A DNA stretch of 23,818 nucleotides from positions 1-23,818 of IMG/VR virus record IMGVR_UViG_3300037069_000459. One strand, written 5' to 3'. Each line of letters opens with the position of its first letter. Positions within the stretch are counted from its first letter, which is position 1. Below, piece by piece: positions 5,402 to 16,099 of this stretch. A model generated the notes under the pieces. It searched no databases, had not been told where the DNA came from, and saw only the letters and a program-made list of their open reading frames with translations. A program made the position numbers and the translations under genes. Source of the DNA: a virus.

Positions 5402-6130
5402 ATGACCGACGCCCGCATCATCATCGCCGGGGACTCCAACCCTCTCGGCTTCCTCAACACCGGCGCCGCGCCGTACGCCCTGACCGCCCGCGTGCAGATT
5501 TGGGCCGACACCAACGCGGACGGCATCGGCGACGCGTGGCACTACATGCGCCCCGGCGTCAACACGGGGACGCTCAACAATCCCACGGCGTGGGGCGAGG
5601 AAGTCCAGATCGCGAACAAGTGGCTCGGCGACCACCCGACCGGCATCATCTGGATCGTGAAAGGTCAGGAAACCGTCAAGGGCGGCGCGACGGCGGCCGA
5701 CTCGTTCGATCCGCACACGGGGCCGATGTTCGCCTCGACGACGCACGCGGTGAACGACGCGATGCACAACCTCGACGGCTCGGCGTTCGCGTTCTCGCAG
5801 TTCGACGTCGCGTTCATCGGCCTCGGCGAGAACGACGCCACGAACCCGACGATGGCCGCGAACTATCTGGCGAACATCACCGAGATAAACGCGGCGGCGC
5901 GCACGGCTTGGCATGTCGACGAACTGGTCGAGTACCGCATCACCGAGGGCGCGGGTGCGCCTGCGGACAACCTTGCCGTTCGCCAAGCGCAATGGCAGGC
6001 CGACCAAGCCGACGCGCACCTCGTGACGTACAAAACCATCGGTTATGACATGCAACCGGATGGTGTACATTACGCCCTCGCGGGGCACGTCGCCCTCGGG
6101 AACGACGCCTATGACGCGTGGGTCTTCTAG
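5402..6130 (+). CDS. SGNH-fold hydrolase, probable carbohydrate or lipid esterase (242 aa)
   Basis: Block I is GDSN with S12 as the probable nucleophile. A GENDA block with N144 supplies an oxyanion-hole residue. PDGVHY near the end supplies D220 and H223 of the triad. These are the blocks of SGNH/GDSL hydrolases, which remove acyl groups from sugars or lipids. There is no signal peptide. In phages such enzymes can trim acetyl groups from surface polysaccharide, either as virion parts or free enzymes. It lies in the P3 operon upstream of two exported proteins. The substrate cannot be read from the sequence. Confidence 0.8.
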   Translation: MTDARIIIAGDSNPLGFLNTGAAPYALTARVQIWADTNADGIGDAWHYMRPGVNTGTLNNPTAWGEEVQIANKWLGDHPTGIIWIVKGQETVKGGATAADSFDPHTGPMFASTTHAVNDAMHNLDGSAFAFSQFDVAFIGLGENDATNPTMAANYLANITEINAAARTAWHVDELVEYRITEGAGAPADNLAVRQAQWQADQADAHLVTYKTIGYDMQPDGVHYALAGHVALGNDAYDAWVF

Positions 6131-11454: not shown

Positions 11455-11580
11455 GAGAGGCTACCGGCGAAAAAGGCAGCGTAGTAGCGCGGAGGCCAGG
11501 ACGCCCGAAACACCCTCAGGCCGTGGAGCCCAACCCACACGGCCCGTTGAAGCTGTAGCCCCGCCTAGCGGTGGCCTCTC
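11455..11580 (+). ncRNA. Possible structured RNA between terL and the lysozyme gene
   Basis: This stretch has no convincing gene. Its ends pair over 12 bp (11455-11466 with 11569-11580), with one G-T pair that is a true wobble only in the plus-strand RNA. An inner 7-bp hairpin lies at 11519-11525 with 11538-11544. The right arm touches the stop codon of the minus-strand gene. It could be an RNA element or simply a second convergent terminator. Confidence 0.3.
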
Positions 11581-11989
11581 ACCCGTTCAGCGCCGCCAGG
11601 ACCCCCGACCGGAGATCCGCCGGCGACACGTAGTCCCCGCCGTTCTCGTGAACGAAAATGGCCTGACACATGGCCGAGAGGTTGTCGGGTGTCAGCGGGA
11701 ACGGAACGTCGGGCTCGAGTCCCATTCGCTCGGCGACGTGTTCAGCATAGGCCGCCGTATGGTTCTCAACCGGCGGCGCCCAACGGTTCACCATCTCGCG
11801 CACGGTAACGAGCCCCTTGGTGCGGTAGTTCGTCAGGATCTTCGCCGTGCAGCGCACGCCGTTCGCCATCGTGTCGAACTGCATGAATGACTTGTCGGTC
11901 CCTGGCTCAATTTCGCCCTTCCACGAGTCGCGGGAAAGGCGGACGTTGCCGGGATTATTGTTGCGGATTCCGCGCGGTAGCTTTGCCAT
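11579..11989 (-). CDS. Virion-associated lysozyme-like protein (136 aa)
   Basis: The ATG at 11989 has AAGGA eight bases upstream; an in-frame ATG at 12040 is less likely. The N-terminus MAKLPRGIRNNNPGNVR is the hallmark of a phage protein family often annotated as structural protein P5 or peptidoglycan hydrolase. There is no signal peptide or membrane segment. It may cut cell wall during entry or serve in lysis. It is the only minus-strand gene between terL and portal and diverges from the portal gene. Its predicted -10 (TACTAT, 12029-12024) overlaps the portal -10 on the other strand. Confidence 0.75.
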   Translation of the reverse strand: MAKLPRGIRNNNPGNVRLSRDSWKGEIEPGTDKSFMQFDTMANGVRCTAKILTNYRTKGLVTVREMVNRWAPPVENHTAAYAEHVAERMGLEPDVPFPLTPDNLSAMCQAIFVHENGGDYVSPADLRSGVLAALNG

Positions 11990-12001
11990 GTGGTGTCCTT
12001 G

Positions 12002-12030
12002 CTGACAAACGGGCCGGGCGGCCATAGTAT
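12002..12030 (+). promoter_or_regulatory. Promoter P6 of the head module
   Basis: CTGACA (12002-12007), 17 bases, TAGTAT (12025-12030). The predicted start is near 12037, with the ATG at 12055 and GGGGGA as ribosome binding site. No TGGCTATTT copy is present, so this is probably a separate late promoter. Confidence 0.6.
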
Positions 12031-12054
12031 CCGCTTTCATCGCCGGGGGAATCC

Positions 12055-13506
12055 ATGACCGAAAAGCCGCGCATTCGGGTTCAGGCCGGATCGAGTTACA
12101 CCGTCGACAGCTTCGCCAACGCCAATCAGCGGATGGGGTTGAACGCGGGCGGCGCGCTGGACGGCGCCGGGTACTATTTCAACTTCCTGACGCGGAATTT
12201 CCTGCTCTTGGAGGCGGCGTATTCCACGAGCTGGATCGTCGGCAAGGCGGTCGACGCGCCGGCCGAGGACATGACCAAGGCCGGGATTGTCCTGAACTCG
12301 ACCCTCGACCCCGACGAGTCCGCCGCGATGTATGCGGCCTATGACGACCTCATGTTGAGCCAGGCGCAGGCCGACGGGATTCGGTGGGGGCGGCTGTACG
12401 GCGGCGCGATCAACCTCATGCTGATCGACGGTCAGGACACGTCGAAGCCGCTGCGCCTCGAGTCCATCCAACAGGGTCAGTTCCGAGGGCTGCGGACGTT
12501 CGACCGTTGGGTTGCCTATCCCGACATGACTCGGATCATCACGACGCCGGGGCCGGATATCGGCCTGCCCGAATTCTACATCGTTGAGGCGAACCTTCCG
12601 CTCGGCATCCCGACGCGAATGGAGATCCACTATTCTCGGGTGCAGCGGTTCGTTGGCAACCCCTTGCCGCTGCGCCGTCGCATCCAAGAAAATCTGTGGG
12701 GCGCATCCATCTGCGAACGCTTGTGGGATCGTCTTCTAGCGTTCGACAGCGCCTCGGCCGGGGCGGCGCAGCTGGTCTATAAGGCGCACCTTCGCACGAT
12801 CAAGGTCGAGGGATATCGCAACCTGATCGCGGCCGGCGGCAAGATGTTCGAGGCGGTGATTCAGCAATTCGAACACATGCGCCGATTCCAGAACATCGAA
12901 GGTCTGACGGTCATGGACGCGGCCGACGAATTCGAAACGCACTCGTACACCTTCGCGGGTCTCGACGACATCCTCACGCAGTTCGGGGACCAGGTCTGCG
13001 GCGCCATCGAAGTTCCGCGCGTCCGCATGTTCGGCGAGTCCCCTGGTGGCCTGAACTCGGACGGCGAAAGTTCGATGCGGACGTACTACGACGACACCGC
13101 CAAGAAACAGAACACGACCCTGCGTCGGCCGACACAACTGGTTCTCGACGTCCTGGCGCGGTCGGTTCTCGGGAAGGCCCCGCCGGAAGGGTTCGGGTTC
13201 TCGTTCGCCCCGCTCGGCCAGATGACCGCCGAGGCCAAGGCGACCGTCGCGAAGACCGTGACCGAAGCCGTGGGCGACGCCTACGACCGAGGCATGATCA
13301 CGGCTCAGGTTGCGGCGAAGGAACTGCGGGAATCCAGCCGCACGACCGGCGTGTTCACCAACATCACCGACGAAGACATCGAGGCGATGGAGGACGTTAT
13401 TCCCGATCCCATCGAGACGGCGGCGGCGATGGCCGAGGCAACGGCGGTCGACGATCCGTCCGCACCTGGTGGTGCGAAAAAGAAGCCGACCGCCAAGGCT
13501 GAGTGA
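12055..13506 (+). CDS. Portal protein, DUF1073 type (483 aa)
   Basis: The N-terminal region has NFLLLEAAYSTSWIVGKAVDAPAEDMTKAGI, typical of DUF1073 portals. Residues near 325-345 carry FGESPGGLNSDGESSMRTYYD, a conserved loop of this family. The portal forms the dodecameric ring through which terminase pumps DNA and to which the tail attaches. Length is usual for the family. The C-terminus ends in a lysine-rich tail (GGAKKKPTAKAE). The next gene starts in its stop codon. Confidence 0.9.
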   Translation: MTEKPRIRVQAGSSYTVDSFANANQRMGLNAGGALDGAGYYFNFLTRNFLLLEAAYSTSWIVGKAVDAPAEDMTKAGIVLNSTLDPDESAAMYAAYDDLMLSQAQADGIRWGRLYGGAINLMLIDGQDTSKPLRLESIQQGQFRGLRTFDRWVAYPDMTRIITTPGPDIGLPEFYIVEANLPLGIPTRMEIHYSRVQRFVGNPLPLRRRIQENLWGASICERLWDRLLAFDSASAGAAQLVYKAHLRTIKVEGYRNLIAAGGKMFEAVIQQFEHMRRFQNIEGLTVMDAADEFETHSYTFAGLDDILTQFGDQVCGAIEVPRVRMFGESPGGLNSDGESSMRTYYDDTAKKQNTTLRRPTQLVLDVLARSVLGKAPPEGFGFSFAPLGQMTAEAKATVAKTVTEAVGDAYDRGMITAQVAAKELRESSRTTGVFTNITDEDIEAMEDVIPDPIETAAAMAEATAVDDPSAPGGAKKKPTAKAE

Positions 13507-14246
13507 TGGCGGCGCAGGCGAAAGAGCGTTCCCCGTTCGAGCAAATCCGGGGCATTGAGCGCCGGTACGCGATGACGTTGCGCAAGCTGGCGACGCAGAT
13601 CGGGAACATGACCAACATGTTTGACGATCTCCTGAACAGCCCGGCGCAGCGAGCGGCGCTCGACAACCTGATGCGCCAGTACAGCGACACCCTCACGCCG
13701 TGGGCGCGCTCGCTGGCGGGAAAGGTGGTGCAGGAGGTCGACCGCGCGAACCGCCGCGCCTACGCCGCGCACGCTCAGAACATGAGCCGCGGCCTTAAGG
13801 TCGAGTTGCAGACCGCCCCGACAGGCGAGATGCAACGCCTCATGATGGCCGAGCAAGTCGAACTGATCCGGTCACTTCCCATCGAGGCGGCGCAGCGCGT
13901 TCACGCGATCGCCCGAAAGAACCTCCTGACCAGCGTGCGCGCGGAAGTCCTCGAACGCGAGATCATGCGTACGGGCGAGGTGACGCGGTCGCGGGCCACG
14001 CTGATCGCCAGGACCGAAACGAGTCGCACGTCGTCAAGCCTGACGATGGCGCGGGCGGTGTGGGTGGGGTCGGTCGAGTATGCGTGGCGCACCTCACGCG
14101 ACGATGACGTGCGGCCGTCGCATGACAAGATGGAAAGCCAAATTGTCCAGTGGGCCGACCCGCCGACGCTGGACGGTTTGCGCGGCCATGCGGGGTGTCT
14201 GCCGAACTGCCGGTGTTATCCCGAGCCGCTGATTCCGAGGGATTGA
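13506..14246 (+). CDS. Minor head protein, MuF domain (246 aa)
   Basis: The ATG overlaps the portal stop (TGATG); a GTG one codon earlier is possible. The C-terminal half carries LIARTETSRTSSSLTMAR, then TSRDDDVRPSHDKM and GCLPNCRCYPEP, the ordered motifs of the Mu gpF family. A few copies sit at the portal vertex of the prohead. The N-terminal part is helical. No toxin domain is fused to it, since it ends directly after the MuF motif. Confidence 0.9.
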   Translation: MAAQAKERSPFEQIRGIERRYAMTLRKLATQIGNMTNMFDDLLNSPAQRAALDNLMRQYSDTLTPWARSLAGKVVQEVDRANRRAYAAHAQNMSRGLKVELQTAPTGEMQRLMMAEQVELIRSLPIEAAQRVHAIARKNLLTSVRAEVLEREIMRTGEVTRSRATLIARTETSRTSSSLTMARAVWVGSVEYAWRTSRDDDVRPSHDKMESQIVQWADPPTLDGLRGHAGCLPNCRCYPEPLIPRD

Positions 14247-14281: not shown

Positions 14282-14354
14282 TGGTTACCCCGGCGGGACT
14301 CGAACCCGCATTTCCCCCCTTTGTCGGCGCGCTACCTGACTGCGCTACCCAGCG
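14282..14354 (-). tRNA. Degenerate tRNA-like element 1 (D and T arms intact, encoded CCA)
   Basis: On the minus strand there is a perfect D arm (14345-14329, GCGC stems with AGTCAGGTA loop) and a perfect T arm (14309-14293, GCGGG-TTCGAGT-CCCGC). A 3' discriminator A and CCA (14284-14282) follow. The anticodon region is about four bases short and does not form the usual 5-bp stem, and the acceptor strands pair poorly. It ends the tmRNA/tRNA-like cluster. It could be a decayed tRNA or a processing signal. Confidence 0.45.
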
Positions 14355-14356
14355 TT

Positions 14357-14424
14357 TCCACCAGGGCGGGATTTGAACCCGCGACCTCCGACTGACCGTA
14401 CGCCCGTGCGGGCGAAACCTTGGA
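14357..14424 (-). tRNA. Degenerate tRNA-like element 2 (T arm intact)
   Basis: A perfect T arm lies at 14382-14366 (GCGGG-TTCAAAT-CCCGC), preceded by a plausible variable loop (AGGTC). The ends can form a bulged acceptor-like stem (14418-14424 with 14357-14365). A 5-bp hairpin (CGCCC-GCAC-GGGCG) takes the place of the D arm. No normal anticodon arm is visible. It lies two to three bases from elements 1 and 3. Confidence 0.35.
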
Positions 14425-14425
14425 G

Positions 14426-14497
14426 CACAGGGCGAGGAAGTCGAACCCCGCATCTACCGGGCGAACCCGGCATGTCCTAGCCTTAGACGACCCTAGC
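14426..14497 (-). tRNA. Degenerate tRNA-like element 3 (Glu/Gln-like D arm)
   Basis: The minus strand has TC then GTC-TAAGGCTAG-GAC (14490-14474), as in Glu/Gln tRNAs. An anticodon-position hairpin follows with a six-base loop. The T-like arm (14450-14434) has the TTCGA loop but a poor stem. The acceptor strands match only partly. It begins at the probable 3' end of the tmRNA coding piece, so it may guide processing of that RNA. Confidence 0.4.
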
Positions 14498-14801
14498 AAG
14501 TTGGCGGGGTTCTGTTGCCAAGCCCCCGCCGGGCTCCGCTTACGCCGCGACGGCGTAAGACAGGTCTTGGTTGTCGTTCACAGTTCTTTTGCGGATTGGA
14601 TACCGCGCCAGTAGGCCCGTCGAATCTGATCGCCCCCATCAAGAACACACGGGCCGGTTCAGATGCCGGATGCTTCGCATCATCCGACGCGGTCCTCGTG
14701 GCCGCCGTCCGTGTGTTCGTGGTGGAGGCGGCGGGAATCGCACCCGCGTCCGAACCTCAGCGCTCGCATATCCTTCTCGAATACTGCGACAGTCAACCGC
14801 T
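14498..14801 (-). ncRNA. ssrA: Circularly permuted two-piece tmRNA (phage-encoded)
   Basis: The acceptor piece comes first: T arm 14747-14731, then CGCCTCC, A and CCA ending at 14720. The coding piece starts near 14637 with GGGGGCG followed by ATCAGATTCGACGGGC, the tmRNA 5' signature. GGGGGCG pairs with CGCCTCC over 7 bp and includes G3-U70, the alanyl-tRNA synthetase identity pair. The 82-base spacer (14719-14638) is closed by a perfect 10-bp stem (14709-14718 with 14643-14652). The two pieces can also pair through TATCC/GGATA and TGGCGC/GCGCTG. A tag frame (14581-14540) and an H-type pseudoknot (S1 14531-14535/14521-14525, S2 14526-14530/14503-14507) follow. It would rescue stalled ribosomes. 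The outer ends, 14801 and 14498, are estimates. Confidence 0.93.
14540..14581 (-). other. tmRNA proteolysis-tag reading frame
   Basis: Thirteen codons and TAA encode VNDNQDLSYAVAA. The NDN core and AVAA end match alphaproteobacterial tags; a C-terminal AA is what ClpXP reads. The stop codon lies in an 8-bp hairpin (CTTACGCC-GTCGC-GGCGTAAG), as in helix 5 of tmRNA. The first codon is GTG where most tags start with alanine. Confidence 0.88.
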
Positions 14802-14823
14802 TTTGCTCCACAAAATGGACCAA

Positions 14824-14875: not shown

Positions 14876-16099
14876 TTGACCACATACGCGCCAGCCAAGA
14901 TCAGCGCTCGGAAGTCGAAGACTCCCGAAGGCTTTCTTGTGCTGCATGACGTTCGGTTGAGCCGCACCGGGGACATGCTGTACGGGGCCGGTCAGACGCC
15001 GGTTCCCGTGGGCTCGAACGGCGTGGCCGTGATCAGCCGCGACGCCGACACCGTGTTCGCCGCCGATGCCCTGGCGTCGTTCGTCGGCAAGCCCGTCACC
15101 ATCGGACATCCGGCCGAGGCCGTGAACCCCTCGAACGCCCGCGACCTGTCGCACGGTCATATCCTGTTCGCGCGCCAGGGTGCGCCGCCGCTGTCCGATT
15201 TCATGGTCGGCGACGTGCTGGTGACGTCAAAGGACGCCATCGACCTCGCTGACGCGGGCTGTGAAATCTCCTGCGGCTACGACGCCGCGTACGAGGTAAC
15301 CGGCCCCGGTCGTGGGCGGCAGACGCGAATCGTTGGAAACCATCTGGCGTTTCTGCCCGATGGCAAACATGGCCGCTGTGGTCCGATGTGCTACGTCGGC
15401 GATCAGAGCATGGAACTAGAGGACCCGACTCCGATGACCACGAAGAACAGCCTGTTCGGCGGCGGCGCCGCCCTGCTCAAGAAGGTGTTCGCCGCGAAGG
15501 ACGACGCCGAACTCGCCCGCGTGCTGGACGAAGCGACCGCCGATGAAGCGCGCCAGGCCGACGCCGCACGCATCGCCGAGCTTGAGGCGACGGTCGCCCG
15601 CCTGACCAAGGACTCCGAGAAGGAAGACAAGGGCAAGGACGACGACAAGGACGACGAAGACGAGAAGGCCAAAAAGGCCAAGACCGACGACGCCGCGTAC
15701 GTCGCCGCCACCCTCCCGCGCGTGAAGTCCGCCGCCGAGATCCTGGCCCCCGGCATCACCTTCCCGACCCACGACGCCGCCGACCTCACCGCCACCCGTG
15801 ACGCCATGTGCGCGTGTCAGCGGTCGGCCCTGGTCAAGGCGCTCGAACGCCCCGAGGGCAAGGTCGCCGTCGAGGCCATGTTCGGCGCCGGCGTGGACGT
15901 GACCAAGCTGACCGGCCCGACCCTCGACGCCGGGTTCTTCGGCGCGTCAGCCATGATCGGCGCGCTGAACAATCACACCCTCTCGGCGATGGCGATGAGC
16001 CGCGGCGAGGGCGGCGAACTCGCCTCGGCGACGCAACGCGCCATCGACGCCGACAAGCGCTCGCAAGAGCGTTGGAACAAGAACCGCGCCGCCGCCTAA
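14876..16099 (+). CDS. Prohead protease/scaffold, DUF2213 type (407 aa)
   Basis: A TTG start follows AGGGGG by about six bases. Residues 15-165 match DUF2213: VLHDVRLSRTGDMLYGAGQTP, then KPVTIGHP and CEISCGYDAAYE, motifs of a putative prohead protease domain. The following region is highly charged and helical, with an acidic-lysine run near 245-265 (KEDKGKDDDKDDEDEK), as expected for a scaffold that is removed during maturation. It lies upstream of the cement and capsid genes, as usual in this head module. Confidence 0.85.
   Translation: MTTYAPAKISARKSKTPEGFLVLHDVRLSRTGDMLYGAGQTPVPVGSNGVAVISRDADTVFAADALASFVGKPVTIGHPAEAVNPSNARDLSHGHILFARQGAPPLSDFMVGDVLVTSKDAIDLADAGCEISCGYDAAYEVTGPGRGRQTRIVGNHLAFLPDGKHGRCGPMCYVGDQSMELEDPTPMTTKNSLFGGGAALLKKVFAAKDDAELARVLDEATADEARQADAARIAELEATVARLTKDSEKEDKGKDDDKDDEDEKAKKAKTDDAAYVAATLPRVKSAAEILAPGITFPTHDAADLTATRDAMCACQRSALVKALERPEGKVAVEAMFGAGVDVTKLTGPTLDAGFFGASAMIGALNNHTLSAMAMSRGEGGELASATQRAIDADKRSQERWNKNRAAA

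Follow-up and report, generated by a model that had tools for sequence, protein, structure and literature searches.

A two-piece, circularly permuted tmRNA of the alphaproteobacterial type, encoded by a phage and lacking PK1

Overview

The 23,818-base window analyzed here is a virus record of IMG/VR and a fragment of a contractile-tailed phage; its minus strand carries a circularly permuted, two-piece tmRNA gene of the alphaproteobacterial type at approximately 14499-14819. The locus is a real phage two-piece tmRNA and a divergent variant of a known RNA; what is new about it is only the absence of PK1 and the company of a Y-RNA-like element. Computation established the presence and structure of the gene, its location in a phage, the absence of PK1 and the recurrent loss of PK1 in other phages. 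The features are as follows.

14751-14773, minus: helix P2, acceptor-piece strand (GGAUAUGCGAGCGCUGAGGUUCG), pairing in helical segments with 14598-14619 (two-piece co-fold, Rfam alignment)
14720-14758, minus: tRNA-like 3' part with T arm, 3' acceptor strand CGCCUCC, A73 and CCA (ARAGORN 3' tRNA domain, Rfam)
14638-14719, minus: intervening segment of 82 nt, expected to be removed (sequence and fold)
14612-14637, minus: tRNA-like 5' part with acceptor strand GGGGGCG and D-loop region AUCAGAUUCGA (ARAGORN 5' tRNA domain)
14598-14619, minus: helix P2, coding-piece strand (CGGGCCUACUGGCGCGGUAUCC) (Rfam, co-fold)
14582-14597, minus: short linker between P2 and the resume codon, where PK1 is expected but missing (Rfam alignment gap, G1-to-tag distances)
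14540-14581, minus: tag reading frame GUG...UAA, encoding VNDNQDLSYAVAA (ARAGORN)
14503-14536, minus: 3' pseudoknot with the conserved GGCAACAGAA loop; S1, 14524-14530/14503-14509; S2, 14533-14536/14520-14523
14323-14392, minus: Y-RNA/YrlA-like tRNA-shaped module, permuted at the anticodon loop (RNAfold, Rfam YrlA, geometry scan)
13503-14246, plus: head morphogenesis (MuF-like) gene flanking the RNA island (PHROG 324, E 1.3e-62)
14876-16099, plus: head maturation protease/DUF2213-like gene flanking the RNA island (PHROGs 1961 and 530)

Identification of a permuted tmRNA gene on the minus strand

Searching the whole window with 4227 Rfam families, we found a match to RF04321 (tmRNA_permuted) at 14773-14540 on the minus strand (79.3 bits, E 5.6e-14; GA cut-off, 47 bits) that spans the full length of the model. 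RF01849 (alpha_tmRNA) matched 14819-14499 on the same strand with 50.0 bits, exactly at its GA cut-off of 50. Employing ARAGORN, we obtained a permuted tmRNA at c[14449,14812], with the 3' tRNA domain followed by the 5' domain and with the tag VNDNQDLSYAVAA ending at a stop codon. The initial annotation had proposed a circularly permuted tmRNA in two pieces, encoded by the phage and with its 3' acceptor part ahead of the 5' part, to be checked with Rfam covariance models and ARAGORN; these searches bear it out and supply the strand, which it had not given. The score of 79.3 bits with the permuted model lies under those of nearly all cellular copies, whose best matches are mostly 109-166 bits. 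A one-piece or beta-type tmRNA was ruled out, as the beta model gave 40.8 bits (cut-off, 84) and ARAGORN called the permuted form. A prophage attachment-site remnant of a host ssrA was also rejected, because the gene is entire and is located between head genes rather than at an end.

The acceptor strands GGGGGCG and CGCCUCC form 7 pairs, including G3-U70, followed by A73 and an encoded CCA (14720). The 82-nt spacer is closed by a 10-bp stem, GAACACACGG/CCGUGUGUUC (14709-14718/14643-14652); its length compares with a median of about 28 nt in the cellular set. Both the acceptor stem with its G3-U70 and CCA and the spacer stem had been described beforehand and were found in full in the sequence and the folds. 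Co-folding of the two pieces gave the 7-bp acceptor stem, a 5-bp T arm and a segmented P2 together. The co-fold energy (z = -2.8 relative to shuffled coding strands), taken alone, would be modest evidence for P2 pairing, because the lowest of 300 shuffles fell slightly below the real value.

The tag starts in an ANDN-like manner, ends with AVAA and is intact with its stop codon. The A at -4 from the resume codon is retained, as in most relatives. After the tag, GGCGGGG/CCCCGCC and GAGC/GCUU pair around the GGCAACAGAA loop to form the 3' pseudoknot, so that the tag frame and the pseudoknot expected to follow it are both present. The same pseudoknot design, with at least 10 pairs, was found in 36 of 38 permuted tmRNAs, formed by many different base pairs, versus 6.7% of shuffles; for the window pseudoknot alone, the shuffle fraction was 4.1%.

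PK1 is missing from the phage tmRNA

In the window tmRNA, 56 nt separate the resume codon from G1, the first nucleotide of the 5' acceptor strand, and the long P2 helix stops 16 nt short of that codon; in the Rfam alignment, the PK1 stem is deleted. Among 45 alphaproteobacterial-type tmRNAs from genomes, the G1-to-tag distance was 80-88 nt in 43, 111 nt in one and 64 nt in one (with an odd tag call). This sample was parsed with ARAGORN and includes those parsable among the 20 lowest-scoring genomes fetched; one of its members, L100, is a phage copy within a genome. Cellular copies hold a CUCGGCAUGGUACCGCCGUUAUCGGG-like segment (PK1) between P2 and the resume codon. With PK1 gone, the 5' coding piece of the window tmRNA falls about 28 nt short of the length found in nearly all of the cellular alpha-type tmRNAs sampled. 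PK1 at this position is a trait of cellular members that the RF04321 model does not require. Its absence from the window had gone unremarked in the initial annotation.

L100 (genome G102, contig C5, 8964-9350) is a second, phage-type permuted tmRNA with acceptor strand GGGCCGG and tRNAs nearby, situated in what appears to be a cluster of phage structural genes; the bacterial genome around it carries a normal ssrA as well.

PK1 is also missing from permuted tmRNAs of the virus contigs L017/L019 (G1-to-tag distance, 47 nt), L011 (48 nt) and L033/L034 (55-64 nt). Like the window tmRNA, these bear tags and retain the 3' pseudoknot, but their tags and spacers are different. Loss of PK1 thereby recurs in about three further phage lineages. 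L019 and L034 had no match among 50,697 phage records. Small open frames, i.e. possible genes within a tmRNA spacer, may be present between the tmRNA pieces of L019 and L011, whose spacers are 159 and 203 nt long; one of the frames has a ribosome-binding-site-like AAAGGAG.

In E. coli, PK1 was found to be necessary for tagging, and a small hairpin was able to substitute for it (review PMC3968760). In the limited set of papers searched, we saw no mention of permuted tmRNAs that bear a tag but lack PK1.

Comparison with known permuted tmRNAs

Permuted tmRNAs of phages are known, two-piece forms having been published in 2022. tmRNA was reported in 402 of 18,146 phages, with 133 unique structures, 53 of which are two-piece and 50 of these marine or aquatic (PMC9004378); 79 phage tmRNA sequences are listed in PMC11915505, and we found dozens more permuted tmRNAs in IMG/VR virus contigs. 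The novelty implied by the initial annotation is therefore weaker, as this kind of RNA had been reported before.

Alphaproteobacterial ssrA (RF01849/RF04321; for example in Caulobacter and Siccirubricoccus, L057) resembles the window gene in its permuted two-piece form, G3-U70 with CCA, P2, the NDN...AVAA-type tag and the 3' pseudoknot with GGCAACAGAA. The window gene differs in the missing PK1 (56 versus 80-88 nt), in its GUG resume codon and in being phage-borne. Alpha-type permuted tmRNAs are likewise encoded by the Caulobacter phage CcrColossus (L004, 1506-1889) and the Rhodobacter phage RcSimone-Hastad (L005, 1240-1630), with no feature annotated there in either record, and the Caulobacter phage CcrPW gave a partial match. 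CcrColossus shares with the window a valine-starting tag (VNDNDAPVMEQLLAA) and Y-RNA-like modules. In contrast to the window, CcrColossus and RcSimone-Hastad have long pre-tag segments (102 and 85 nt), and the tmRNA genes of these phages are not part of the head-gene cluster. Alpha-like two-piece tmRNAs are also encoded by marine phages, among them the OM43 phage Melnitz (PMC9004378); the Melnitz copy is associated with both a glutamine riboswitch and an early promoter, whereas the window gene is antisense within head genes.

A Y-RNA-like element downstream of the tmRNA gene

Directly downstream of the tmRNA gene, on the same strand, there is a tRNA-shaped module that keeps the invariant tRNA positions. 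RNAfold arranges it as an anticodon-stem strand, variable loop, T arm (UUCAAAU), acceptor hairpin, U8-A9, D arm with GG and the other anticodon-stem strand; the acceptor hairpin has 7 bp and is closed by GAAA, and the anticodon-type stem has 5 bp. The T arm, acceptor hairpin and D arm of the tRNA-like module of Y RNA are present according to both the fold and the geometry, and the predicted layout is that of bacterial Y RNA (YrlA). The Rfam YrlA model gave 38.8 bits on the module, below its GA cut-off of 69, and covered model positions 23-86 only, with no evident Rsr-binding outer stem. Since this model also matches tandem tRNAs, the score was not used alone and the geometry was tested directly. 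Among all collected loci, including many tRNA arrays, the scan found the module only in the window phage, in CcrColossus (8-bp stem, GCAA loop) and in Gordonia phage Boopy (5-bp stem, UUCG loop). Ordinary tandem tRNAs were ruled out for the window: ARAGORN finds none, and the acceptor strands pair mutually as a hairpin.

The module is flanked by a further tRNA-like segment with a UUCG-hairpin anticodon arm (approximately 14420-14495) and by an isolated T arm (approximately 14290-14310); the tRNA-like segments adjoining it lie between 14286 and 14496. In CcrColossus (JX100810.1; L116, 108836-109447), up to three YrlA-like matches lie beside a putative TROVE-domain (Ro/Rsr) gene, as would be expected for real Y RNAs. 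One stretch of this region is annotated as tRNA-Gln, and ARAGORN detects no tRNA there. In Boopy (L114, 483-582), a YrlA-like RNA matches the full model with 52.1 bits within a tRNA cluster beside a tmRNA; it overlaps an annotated tRNA-Leu, and that annotation is doubtful. No match to TROVE (PF05731) was found in the 23.8-kb window, which is an incomplete fragment. Y RNAs of phages are known from mycobacteriophages (PMC12282133, citing Chen 2014).

Genomic setting

The plus strand of the window encodes terminase, portal, MuF-like, protease, capsid and tail-sheath proteins, and the RNA genes lie antisense in a 630-nt gap between the MuF-like and protease genes. The two genes abut in Burkholderia phage Magia; in Acinetobacter phage A785.1, about 290 nt separate their counterparts. 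Most relatives are myophages of about 39-45 kb, such as Magia; the best-matching proteins, with 44-50% identity, belong to phages that infect beta- and gammaproteobacteria. A second contig with the same tmRNA gene is 99.98% identical over 4.4 kb and was the only closer homologue found. A search of genome contigs gave no portal-gene relatives, and a search of 385 genomes from the class to which Siccirubricoccus belongs, run without a positive control, gave no capsid relatives. No consensus sigma-70 promoter was found on the minus strand near the tmRNA gene, and the promoter and terminator scan was empty. There is no smpB in the 23.8-kb fragment, so the tmRNA would depend on the SmpB of the host.

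Two other frames were noted. A 153-aa frame at 11579-12040 on the minus strand, antisense between the terminase and portal genes, has no Pfam match; its GIRNNNPGNV motif is reminiscent of phage muramidases. The region 5402-6130 has a weak match, just below cut-off, to SASA-type carbohydrate esterase (PF03629, E 3.1e-5).

Discussion

Most probably, the window gene is a bona fide and functional phage ssrA of the alphaproteobacterial permuted type, which would carry out SmpB- and AlaRS-dependent rescue while dispensing with PK1. The minus-strand transcript would fold with the 3' acceptor part first and be trimmed by host tRNA-processing enzymes with loss of the 82-nt spacer, leaving two RNAs that stay paired through the acceptor stem and P2. 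The tmRNA would be charged by AlaRS of the host via G3-U70, host SmpB and EF-Tu would bring it to stalled ribosomes, and the frame would add A-VNDNQDLSYAVAA, a degradation tag ending in VAA, with the 3' pseudoknot as the sole pseudoknot kept. Transcription, processing, charging, use of SmpB and rescue or tagging during infection are predicted; as the initial annotation suggested, the phage may supply its own ribosome rescue or retag host proteins. A functional gene is supported by the intact parts (covariance-model and ARAGORN matches, co-fold, 3' pseudoknot, tag and A at -4), by the compact island between head genes, by the second contig and related phage tmRNAs, and by the loss of PK1 elsewhere with the other parts kept. 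It is weakened by the alpha_tmRNA score at cut-off, the low 79.3 bits, the lack of a consensus minus-strand promoter nearby, the role of PK1 in E. coli and the lack of smpB.

Several of these points could also be read as signs of decay, namely that a host ssrA was captured, lost its PK1 region by deletion afterwards and is now an unexpressed passenger; the low score among permuted tmRNAs, the missing consensus promoter and the T-arm fragments of uncertain meaning downstream fit such a history. We consider it unlikely, however, since no damage is seen in the acceptor stem with G3-U70, CCA, P2, the tag frame with its stop, the A at -4 or the 3' pseudoknot, and several otherwise intact-looking phage lineages are also without PK1. 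The missing PK1 also leaves room for an inhibitor or decoy that is charged and bound by SmpB but resumes translation poorly, so that it damps host tmRNA or adds a tag of different stability; in E. coli, a tag-less form of the phage DS6A tmRNA was reported to inhibit the endogenous tmRNA (PMC11915505). For a pure decoy, the tag frame and degradation-type end that the window gene keeps would be superfluous, and the other PK1-less phages likewise keep their tags, which makes a decoy quite improbable. As for chance resemblance, nothing beyond the borderline alpha_tmRNA score speaks for it, and the agreement of two independent programs, with E 5.6e-14 over the whole window and 4227 families, renders it exceedingly improbable.

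Beyond a functional phage ssrA, we suggest tentatively, as a possibility that we would not expect to hold in full, that phages have repeatedly evolved minimal, tag-encoding, PK1-less two-piece tmRNAs, and that the window carries one of them, packed with a Y-RNA-like mimic in an antisense island within head genes as a quality-control module for translation and RNA that takes over ribosome rescue in infection. Although two-piece tmRNAs of phages are known, they have received little study. Tag-bearing tmRNAs that naturally lack PK1 would test directly whether resuming translation needs PK1, and the fact that unrelated phages (the window phage, CcrColossus and Boopy) share tmRNA together with Y-RNA-like tRNA mimics suggests that phages exert control over ribosome and tRNA quality systems.
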